Assembly: GCA_020061465.1 (NCBI GenBank)
Contig: JAGUYG010000070.1
Location: forward strand, 1-35,454
Length of the DNA: 35,454 nt
Reading direction: 5' to 3'
From: Ignavibacteriales bacterium
Lineage (GTDB): Bacteria; Bacteroidota; Ignavibacteria; Ignavibacteriales; Ignavibacteriaceae
The notes beneath the pieces were generated by a model. The model did no database searches. It was not told the DNA's origin and saw only the letters and a list, made by a program, of their open reading frames with translations. How positions within the stretch are numbered: the first letter of the stretch is position 1; every line of letters starts with the position of its first letter. Positions 3,430-24,945 of this stretch are shown here, piece by piece. The position numbers were made by a program, and so were the translations under genes.

Positions 3430-3471
3430 CTAATTTCTGTGCAACTCCCGGACGTATAAATAGTGCGTCAT
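3430..3471 (-). pseudogene. Remnant start of a second GIY-YIG gene
   Basis: The minus strand reads ATG ACG CAC TAT TTA TAC, giving MTHYLY, which parallels MPHYLY at the start of the intact GIY-YIG gene (3837). After six codons it diverges and reaches a stop. It follows a second copy of the tRNA terminator just as the intact gene does. It is therefore the start of a duplicated unit whose remainder has been lost next to the sigma-54 activator gene. Confidence 0.65.
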
Positions 3472-3476
3472 AAAAA

Positions 3477-3505
3477 CAGAAAAACCCCAAATTGGTTTTG
3501 GGGTT
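3477..3505 (-). terminator. Duplicate tRNA terminator hairpin
   Basis: The minus strand gives AAACCCCAAA-ACCAA-TTTGGGGTTT followed by TT, identical to the hairpin after the intact tRNA-Asn (3842-3870). It is preserved as part of the 366-base duplicated unit. Confidence 0.8.
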
Positions 3506-3510
3506 TGTCG

Positions 3511-3580
3511 CTCCGCAGACAGGATTCGAACCTGTATCCCGATCCCGAAAGTTTTCGGGTCGGGATAACAGCCGGATGCT
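3511..3580 (-). pseudogene. Displaced 3' part of tRNA-Asn, interrupted by a palindrome
   Basis: The minus strand begins AGCATCCGGCTGTTA (3' side of the D-stem, then the 5' half of the anticodon arm). It ends with TACAGGTTCGAATCCTGT plus CTGCGGAG (T-arm and acceptor). The 3' half of the anticodon stem and the variable loop are replaced by a palindrome at about 3535-3567 built from TCCCGA..TCGGGA. The 5' acceptor and most of the D-arm are missing, so it cannot be a working tRNA. Its first base coincides with the stop codon of the GIY-YIG gene. Confidence 0.85.
3535..3567. repeat. TCCCGA palindrome inside tRNA remnant
   Basis: ATCCCGA-TCCCGAAA-gt-TTTTCGGG-TCGGGAT, a nested near-perfect palindrome. 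It replaces about ten bases of the anticodon-stem 3' side and variable loop relative to the intact tRNA at 3876-3947. Related palindromes lie at 3987-4006, 4067-4086 and 24910-24927. Confidence 0.75.
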
Positions 3581-3837
3581 TAGGGTGTTATTTTTCCTTC
3601 AATTAATAGCTGAATCATCTTCCGGCTTTTCCATCCTTTTACTTTCCTCTCTGCTTGCATCGCTTCTGCTTTTGTAGGATACTCTTTTTTGTAAACTATT
3701 TTCCATGGGCGGTATCTGCTCGTGAATCCTTTTTCGATTGTATTATGATGTTTCAGTCTTTCCTCAGGGTTACTCGATGAGCCTTTGTAGTAGATTCCGT
3801 TTTTTTTTGATTGCAATATGTATAAATAGTGCGGCAT
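3580..3837 (-). CDS. Small GIY-YIG nuclease, tRNA-associated
   Basis: An 85-residue stand-alone GIY-YIG domain. Seen: first strand HYLYIL, second motif YYKGSS (a YKG variant of YIG), the catalytic-type arginine in ERLKHHN, and the C-terminal glutamate/lysine/tryptophan block EAMQAERKVKGWKSRK. The ATG at 3837 is preferred; longer frames simply translate the tRNA gene upstream. The gene lies 38 bases after the tRNA-Asn 3' end, just past the tRNA terminator, and its stop codon abuts a displaced tRNA-Asn 3' part. A truncated second copy follows 366 bases on. Small GIY-YIG genes beside tRNA or rRNA genes are common in Bacteroidota. Whether they are mobile or serve DNA repair is not settled. This arrangement favours a mobile, tRNA-targeting history. 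Confidence 0.85.
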   Translation of the reverse strand: MPHYLYILQSKKNGIYYKGSSSNPEERLKHHNTIEKGFTSRYRPWKIVYKKEYPTKAEAMQAERKVKGWKSRKMIQLLIEGKITP

Positions 3838-3841
3838 AATA

Positions 3842-3870
3842 TAGAAAAACCCCAAATTGGTTTTGGGGTT
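3842..3870 (-). terminator. tRNA-Asn terminator
   Basis: Minus-strand hairpin AAACCCCAAA-ACCAA-TTTGGGGTTT with a perfect 10-base stem and a short T-tract, beginning five bases after the tRNA. It separates tRNA-Asn from the GIY-YIG gene, so the nuclease gene would need readthrough or its own promoter. Confidence 0.85.
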
Positions 3871-3875
3871 TGTCG

Positions 3876-3947
3876 CTCCGCAGACAGGACTCGAACCTGT
3901 AACCCTCCGGTTAACAGCCGGATGCTCCACCATTGAGCTACTGCGGA
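3876..3947 (-). tRNA. tRNA-Asn (anticodon GTT)
   Basis: A complete cloverleaf. The acceptor TCCGCAG pairs with CTGCGGA, followed by discriminator G. The D-arm is GCTC-AATGGTG-GAGC. The anticodon arm is TCCGG-CTGTTAA-CCGGA, with GTT at the wobble-to-third positions. The T-arm is ACAGG-TTCGAGT-CCTGT. The 3' CCA is not encoded (CGA follows), so it must be added by CCA transferase. This is the only intact copy of four related tRNA-Asn sequences at this locus. Confidence 0.97.
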
Positions 3948-3964
3948 ATTTACTTATTTTTTTC

Positions 3965-4027
3965 TCCCGCTTACCCTCCGGTTAACATCCCGACTCCTGT
4001 CGGGATCCACCATTGAGCTACTGCGGA
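3965..4027 (-). pseudogene. Defective tRNA-Asn copy B (no T-arm, palindrome insert)
   Basis: The 5' part (TCCGCAGTAGCTCAATGGTG plus GA) is identical to the intact tRNA. The 5' side of the anticodon stem is then replaced by the palindrome at 3987-4006. GTTAACCGGAGGGT follows as normal. The T-arm is absent, and GCGGGAG comes next, possibly an eroded 3' acceptor. It cannot be charged as a normal tRNA-Asn, but RNase P could still recognise parts of it if transcribed with the downstream intact copy. Confidence 0.8.
3987..4006. repeat. TCCCGA palindrome in tRNA copy B
   Basis: ATCCCGAC-TCCT-GTCGGGAT, a perfect 8-base stem. It substitutes for GCATCCGGC of the intact tRNA, the end of the D-stem plus the 5' anticodon stem. 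Confidence 0.85.
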
Positions 4028-4044
4028 ATTTATTTATTTTTTTC

Positions 4045-4107
4045 TCCCGCTTACCCTCCGGTTAACATCCCGACTCCTGTCGGGATCCACCATTGAGCTA
4101 CTGCGGA
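4045..4107 (-). pseudogene. Defective tRNA-Asn copy A (no T-arm, palindrome insert)
   Basis: Same structure as copy B and identical to it across the tRNA-like part. It has an intact 5' acceptor and D-arm 5' side, the palindrome at 4067-4086, then GTTAACCGGAGGGT, with no T-arm. It is the first element of the array in the direction of transcription. Confidence 0.8.
4067..4086. repeat. TCCCGA palindrome in tRNA copy A
   Basis: ATCCCGAC-TCCT-GTCGGGAT, identical in sequence and placement to the palindrome in copy B. It was therefore present before the 80-base unit duplicated. Confidence 0.85.
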
Positions 4108-24897: not shown

Positions 24898-24945
24898 AGA
24901 GACGGGGCATCCCGAAAGCATTCGGGACAAGTTACCCCGTCTTTA
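24898..24945. terminator. Nested hairpin between convergent genes
   Basis: Outer stem AGACGGGG (24900-24907) with CCCCGTCT (24935-24942). Inside it is a separate TCCCGAA-agca-TTCGGGA hairpin (24910-24927) of the same TCCCGA type as in the tRNA remnants. It lies 130 bases after the PiT gene and 80 bases after the end of the DUF2520 gene, so it could terminate both, although it lacks strong T-tracts. The inner part looks inserted. Confidence 0.55.

Follow-up and report, generated by a model that had tools for sequence, protein, structure and literature searches.

Small GIY-YIG nuclease genes beside tRNA genes and displaced, hairpin-interrupted tRNA ends in Bacteroidota: a candidate minimal homing unit

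Introduction

SegB of T-even phages is a free-standing GIY-YIG homing endonuclease whose gene adjoins tRNA genes; by report it cleaves tRNA genes internally and drives tandem amplification of the tRNA-segB segment, and its motif is RAWTSGAAC (PMC13096335). It is the nearest described relative of the arrangement analysed here, which lies in a 35,454-nucleotide stretch of an Ignavibacteriales genome of the Bacteroidota (contig JAGUYG010000070.1), hereafter the window. Read as its reverse complement, the SegB motif (PMC13096335) matches the T-loop sequence GTTCGAATC, which in our data is split by hairpins in the T loops of tRNA-Ser relics. As with SegB, the nuclease gene of the unit lies outside any intron or intein and next to its presumed target, here probably the tRNA gene. 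However, the Seg proteins are encoded by phages, and the window nuclease, an 85-amino-acid protein designated P0001, has no tblastn-level match to them; the available text on SegB also mentions neither a hairpin nor a tRNA end that is displaced or supplied by a unit (PMC13096335).

Records from Neisseria and Sinorhizobium match P0001 at 33% and 36%. We take these to be Ssn proteins, which in Neisseria are small GIY-YIG site-specific single-strand nucleases linked to repeated palindromes. That link resembles an intergenic clade of GIY-YIG genes found in this study, and we know of no description of Ssn nucleases splitting tRNA genes. Islands with tyrosine recombinases that target tRNA genes insert into the gene, restore its 3' end and leave a displaced copy. 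A restored tRNA and a displaced tRNA end also occur at the nuclease units, but these have no integrase and their spacings, mostly 0.3-0.45 kb, leave room for one GIY-YIG open reading frame; moreover, the displaced part of a nuclease unit carries a hairpin, and a mirror form would restore the 5' part. In REP/RAYT systems, short palindromes lie near a small nuclease gene, as they do here, but that gene encodes an HUH (Y1) transposase rather than a GIY-YIG protein, and the palindromes at issue in this study are located within tRNA relics. The first-pass annotation of the window had taken small GIY-YIG genes to be known neighbours of Bacteroidota tRNAs. Our literature searches, conducted outside preprints and most subscription papers, gave that claim no support and returned no description of such bacterial units.

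Results

The tRNA-Asn locus of the window

All parts of the locus are on the minus strand, and the order proposed in the first-pass annotation is present. Transcription first meets two 5' relics of tRNA-Asn. In the first (4053-4107), nucleotides (nt) 1-22 and 32-46 of the tRNA flank a hairpin, TCCCGACAGGAGTCGGGA (4068-4085), that takes the place of nt 23-31. The second (3973-4027, hairpin at 3988-4005) has the same structure offset by 80 bp, and the underlying 80-bp repeats (4006-4085 and 3926-4005) share 99% identity. Next comes the intact tRNA-Asn(GTT) at 3875-3947 (ARAGORN; Rfam, 71 bits), then a terminator-like hairpin (3844-3874) and the gene for P0001 (3580-3837). The last base of the TAA stop codon of this gene is the first base of a 3' tRNA-Asn relic (3510-3580), in which nt 22-36 and 47-73 flank a nested hairpin, TCCCGACCCGAAAACTTTCGGGATCGGGA (3537-3565), in place of nt 37-46. 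A second terminator-like hairpin (3479-3509) is, as the first-pass annotation had noted, identical to the first across all 31 nt. Finally, a remnant of another GIY-YIG gene (3430-3471) starts at 3471, runs for six codons, then diverges and stops at 3430. It had been described as the first six codons of another such gene; the start holds, but five of the six codons match the P0001 gene (codon 2 is ACG for CCG). The two ATGs are 366 bases apart, as previously counted, and the aligned repeat pair 365.

The palindrome ATCCCGA..TCGGGAT occurs in all three displaced tRNA-Asn pieces, and its pattern has four matches at three places in the window, where 0.02 are expected. One more hairpin, TCCCGAAAGCATTCGGGA, lies at 24910-24927, distant from the sole tRNA of the window. 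The window also holds a 68-nt repeat at 94% identity. Given this repeat, the 80-nt repeat at 99% and the recurrence of the same anatomy in many genomes, the arrangement is not due to chance. The two upstream relics, together with the second terminator and its nuclease remnant, are a record of tandem amplification.

The nuclease

P0001 is a single GIY-YIG domain and little more (Pfam PF01541, E 8e-18); PF10544 also appears at the cut-off, and no other Pfam family. Y6, Y17, G19, R27, H31 and E63 are conserved, with Y6, Y17, R27, H31 and E63 present in 104-110 of 110 aligned rows; we presume that the Tyr, Arg and Glu of the motif have the catalytic roles usual for GIY-YIG enzymes. By domain and predicted catalytic residues, P0001 belongs to the GIY-YIG superfamily. 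No NCBIfam family was found for it. A phage origin was considered and rejected: P0001 has no PHROG at E 0.001, and tblastn against 50,697 phage records gave no match at E 1e-5.

Substitution rates point to purifying selection on the nuclease in part of the pairs compared. Of ten pairs, five have dN/dS of 0.05-0.12; two of these five are tandem copies within one genome, and dS exceeds 2 in one. The ratio is 0.35 and 0.71 in two others, the latter based on four differences, and three are saturated.

Displaced tRNA pieces on the far side of the nuclease

Proteins like P0001 occur in 52 of 59 relatives (E up to 1e-4), and most relatives have a tRNA-Asn resembling the window copy. We assembled 96 stretches with a GIY-YIG gene, 36 from initial searches and 60 picked from the match list of the relatives by tandem matches, single-contig genomes and list order, so that the sample is not random; a contig scan of named genomes contributed one locus (L020). 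Because L045/L050 and L030/L068 are duplicates, the 96 stretches represent 94 loci. A same-strand tRNA lies within 300 bp of the GIY-YIG gene in 65 of the 96, against about 0.3% expected for a random gene. We call a stretch type U where the intact tRNA is at most 300 bp upstream on the same strand (52 stretches, or 50 loci) and type D where it is just downstream (13); the other 31 are neither.

The far side of the nuclease holds a piece of the same tRNA in 48 of the 52 type U and all 13 type D stretches. In far flanks 600-900 bp away, scored in an earlier run of the test, such a piece was present in only 2 of 51 testable loci. The same nuclease without a displaced tRNA end, which the first-pass annotation had named as evidence against its reading, is rare: four of the 52 type U stretches failed the automatic test, and one of these ends at the contig end (L006), while L023, L025 and L079 show a relic on closer inspection. 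L049 passed weakly and gave no chain in the relic alignment. The displaced piece of type D starts at tRNA nt 1 (nt 3 in one L051 copy), and at several type D loci the nuclease gene ends within the intact tRNA.

The 31 remaining stretches, whose labels were assigned by eye where Asn, Ser, Asp, tmRNA or 'intergenic' is named, are diverse. Five (L020, L022, L027, L031 and L032) hold close relatives of P0001 flanked by tRNA-Asn pieces with no tRNA nearby. In L067 (1136-1755), a GIY-YIG gene directly follows the tmRNA gene and precedes a displaced 3' end of the tmRNA, which a hairpin interrupts, so the target is not limited to tRNAs. L044 is a type U arrangement on the opposite strand, L080 lies amid Ser relics, L107 amid Asp relics, and L047, where a contig starts, adjoins a tRNA end that is repeated. 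In 17 stretches (L052, L061, L062, L063, L065, L072, L074, L076, L077, L078, L081, L088, L089, L090, L098, L101 and L104) the gene, a more distant relative, sits amid palindromic or repeated intergenic sequence with no tRNA. No such arrangement was seen in L002, L004, L005 and L035. Ribosomal RNAs and riboswitches were discarded as alternative neighbours: at Rfam gathering scores, a scan of 29 of the 31 stretches (all but L044 and L080) returned only tmRNA, in L067 and L002.

The first-pass annotation had suggested searching other tRNA genes of the window genome, and there tRNA-Pro has a GIY-YIG gene and a relic (L003). tRNA-Ser has a GIY-YIG gene at a contig end with a broken copy upstream (L006), and tRNA-Gly (L012) and tRNA-Met (L015) have hairpin-bearing relics with no GIY-YIG gene seen. 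The last two are probable remains of lost units.

The nuclease tree and its breadth

The nuclease trees omit reading frames shorter than 66 aa, rows with X, L045, L068 and identical repeats; the tree of 84 proteins, one per locus, on which changes were counted also leaves out later tandem copies, one overlapping L028 reading frame and unlabelled rows. tRNA identity changes 16 times on this tree, compared with a mean of 56 and a minimum of 50 in 300 shuffles of the labels. For host family the count is 24, near the shuffled mean of 27.5 (minimum 21). The nuclease phylogeny thus follows tRNA identity and hardly host family. The near-shuffled host family labels may reflect horizontal movement, but could also be obtained from old paralogues with losses.

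In a larger tree, Asp, Pro, Lys, Gly, Cys and the intergenic set each fall on one side of a branch, while Asn needs two changes and Ser five (the alignment is short and many forks are open). At tRNA-Asn there are two nuclease clades. Of the 17 intergenic loci, 16 are in the tree, as the sister group of the Asn clade that includes the window.

Across the phylum, 109 of 198 genomes contain a match to an Asp-clade query. Among the 23 best-scoring loci outside the order, 19 are beside a tRNA (Asp, Gly, Val, Ala, Ser or Pro); 17 of these 19 have a relic, with a hairpin-like insertion in 16 of the 17. The window locus is one case of a phylum-wide pattern.

Occupied and empty sites

Gene order around the tRNA-Asn locus of the window is only partly conserved, and so we used congeneric pairs at tRNA-Asp and tRNA-Lys (G001/G029, G041/G054 and G009/G034), each of which shows two states of a site, either of which may be the older. 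In G001 and G029, about 2.1 kb on the left, including tRNA-Asp, is colinear at 70% identity, and 1.55 kb on the right at 67%. The G029 site is empty, with 312 bp from tRNA to right flank and no GIY-YIG gene, whereas the occupied G001 site has about 2.6 kb there, comprising five units and about 1 kb of unaligned sequence before the right flank. The terminators after tRNA-Asp differ, and that of the occupied site is absent from the empty one. An empty counterpart of the type D tRNA-Ser array of G001 was also sought in G029, with no match.

The occupied G041 and empty G054 sites are colinear through the left flank and tRNA-Lys. In G041, the tRNA is followed by a different terminator, a GIY-YIG gene, a relic with a hairpin, a gap of Ns inside the unit and a last relic, nt 43-73 of which directly join a terminator of the G054 type (89% over 122 bp); beyond that relic, only about 85 bp of the right flank can be aligned. 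Because the G041 relic enters the G054-type terminator, the terminator now beside tRNA-Lys, and by position the 3' part of that tRNA, came with the unit, and the end belonging to the host was displaced. In the third pair, the left flank enters an intact tRNA-Asp in G034 and a 5' relic (nt 1-23, with a hairpin) in G009, where an intact tRNA-Asp with another terminator follows; about 7 kb separates the G034 tRNA from the shared right flank, making that side unclean. The idea in the first-pass annotation that a unit entered tRNA-Asn, or was duplicated there, and made the tRNA whole again gains support from these Lys and Asp sites, and by the same comparison terminator copy 1 of the window (3844-3874) was probably supplied with its unit.

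Aligning tRNA-Asn loci across relatives, as had been proposed, yielded occupied and unoccupied loci, but no ortholog of the window locus that is empty with both flanks. One conserved neighbour gene, left of the tRNA in eight genomes and right in G052, links nine genomes, three occupied and six not. Relics adjoin all 13 occupied loci and 7 of the 26 unoccupied ones (n = 39, with occupancy assigned by hand; P 1e-5); the matches at two of those seven, L151 and L154, are weak, and another two, L147 and L159, are at contig ends. Two observations concern single loci. L160 (G026) has ten tandem 5' tRNA-Asn relics, each with the hairpin TCCCGATGTATCGGGA, spaced about 67 bp apart and about 70-670 bp upstream of tRNA-Asn, with no GIY-YIG gene within 300 bp. 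L147 (G033) has three near-identical tRNA-Asn copies at 3568-3905, 103 bp apart, at the contig end.

Could the nuclease instead be a domesticated gene, co-transcribed with the tRNA to serve the host, with the relics acting as regulatory leader or trailer RNAs? The GIY-YIG gene is in the transcription direction of the tRNA, the mirror-form relic directly precedes the nuclease gene, and selection appears to act on part of the pairs. A host function nevertheless fits poorly with patchy presence, tRNA-Asn being unoccupied at 26 of 39 loci (L147 and L159 of these at contig ends), and with the use of tRNA-Asn by two nuclease clades, and we regard it as very improbable.

Hairpins within the relics

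We examined 118 relics scoring at least 20, counting repeats within arrays and two duplicated loci. An insertion of at least 10 nt is present in 112, and 91 of 111 distinct insertions contain a perfect stem of at least 5 bp, compared with 10% of shuffles and 22% of same-length tRNA stretches. Positions recur across genera: nt 51/52-58/59 in Asp, about nt 26-42 in Lys and about nt 29-45 in Pro. Asn 5' relics have the hairpin at nt 23-31 in five loci and at nt 14-27 in others, and in several tRNAs the T loop is interrupted between GTTC and GA. Among testable Asn 3' relics, a hairpin at nt 37-46 occurs in 11 of 12 loci of the window clade (ten by pattern plus L025; the exception, L023, has its hairpin in the T arm) versus none of four in the second Asn clade (P 0.003).

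Hairpins of the form TCCCGA..TCGGGA number 54 in G000, 32 in G001, 17 in G019 and 6 in G056, where a reversed-pattern control gives 2, 0, 2 and 2; in G001, 26 of the 32 are more than 2 kb from any of the 43 tRNAs. Together with the intergenic GIY-YIG loci, this means that the hairpins are not peculiar to the tRNA-nuclease unit. Separately, L013, L014, L016, L017 and L019 of the window genome contain a dispersed repeat of the type AAAAAGGT..GAATATTC with TCCCGA hairpins nested inside.

The hairpins could themselves be the substrate. The nuclease would then be a structure- or single-strand-specific enzyme of the UPF0213/Slx1 branch, with the hairpins serving as cis-acting ends, as REP does for RAYT, and tRNA genes would be invaded as single-strand cloverleafs, with hairpins added in the D, anticodon and T arms. 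The solved chains closest to P0001 in a PDB sequence search are UPF0213 and SLX1, a sister clade sits among intergenic palindromes, some relic hairpins nest within hairpins, and several lie in loops with zero tRNA bases lost. We consider this explanation unlikely, if worth keeping in mind, since hairpin sequences vary between clades and the pairing of each clade with a single tRNA identity would need a further explanation.

Terminators and tandem arrays

Twelve of 25 comparable type U stretches, the window included, repeat nearly the same spacer after the last relic (score at least 0.87); the other 13 score 0.76 or less, and one ends at a contig end. The former look like tandem duplications of the unit and the latter like what would be expected of simple insertions, as in G041. 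Tandem arrays are common, also in single-contig genomes, with five 315-bp units at tRNA-Asp and three units each at tRNA-Ser and tRNA-Arg; spacing is mostly 298-471 bp, and 720 bp in L021.

Arrays of near-identical units, and terminators present in duplicate in 12 of the 25 stretches that could be compared, are what would be left by an old, stable tRNA-nuclease pair duplicated by unequal crossing-over, with the relics as decayed copies. Tandem amplification clearly occurs, but as a whole account, which the first-pass annotation had raised against itself, this is improbable: congeneric empty sites have a different terminator, the host terminator is displaced at tRNA-Lys, and relics are interrupted at the same tRNA positions across several genera. 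Unequal crossover as sole cause was rejected on the empty sites.

Discussion

So, is this a homing unit? The association with tRNAs, displaced pieces, empty sites, an isotype-following tree, purifying selection and tandem arrays together make it probable, as judged from sequence comparison, that we are dealing with a minimal homing unit specific to tRNA genes, which would cleave a single such gene, provide a new end for it and leave hairpin-interrupted relics. The 85-aa nuclease would recognise and cut one tRNA gene, for the window clade at or close to the anticodon arm of tRNA-Asn(GTT). To judge from the anatomy, repair would then copy in the part of the tRNA that lies 3' of roughly the cut site, followed by a terminator, the gene for the nuclease and a short hairpin-ended tRNA stretch. 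An intact tRNA would be rebuilt from the 5' part of the host and the 3' part supplied by the unit, with its new terminator, while the 3' part and terminator of the host would be pushed downstream, as position and terminator show in the G041/G054 pair at tRNA-Lys. The mirror form has the nuclease flanked by a displaced 5' part on one side and the intact tRNA on the other, and 5' relics are also kept upstream at many loci. The hairpins in the D, anticodon or T arm would most likely disarm the relics as targets, and the unit amplifies in tandem via its repeats.

Several observations sit uneasily with a homing unit. The intact tRNA beside the nuclease keeps the sequence expected to be cut; single-strand specificity, as in Ssn, would explain its escape. 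Some relics keep whole arms (that of L083 is uninterrupted over nt 25-88), and the L023 hairpin is in the T arm. There are relics without a nuclease, at 7 of the 26 unoccupied Asn loci, the ten tandem copies in G026 among the examples, and 17 of the 96 GIY-YIG stretches lie amid intergenic palindromes with no tRNA. The G041/G054 comparison has a short right flank and a gap of Ns, and about 1 kb of G001 is unaligned.

The wider proposition, for and against which we see the balance as even, is that these are near-minimal autonomous cleave-and-rescue elements found across the phylum, each about 0.3-0.45 kb with one gene of about 85 codons. Each lineage would have one tRNA or tmRNA target, cut it and supply the rescuing part itself, with programmed hairpins disarming the halves or serving as ends of the element. 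The unit may be among the smallest self-spreading DNA elements known. If the proposition is true, it accounts for why these genomes have so many small GIY-YIG genes and broken copies of tRNAs, provides a natural counterpart of engineered cleave-and-rescue drives, and offers about ten tRNA-specific nuclease groups in which to study how a domain of this small size selects the DNA it acts on. Homing can be tested directly on the pairs of empty and occupied sites. Essential tRNA genes across the phylum would then be standing targets of tiny selfish nucleases that carry the spare part with them.
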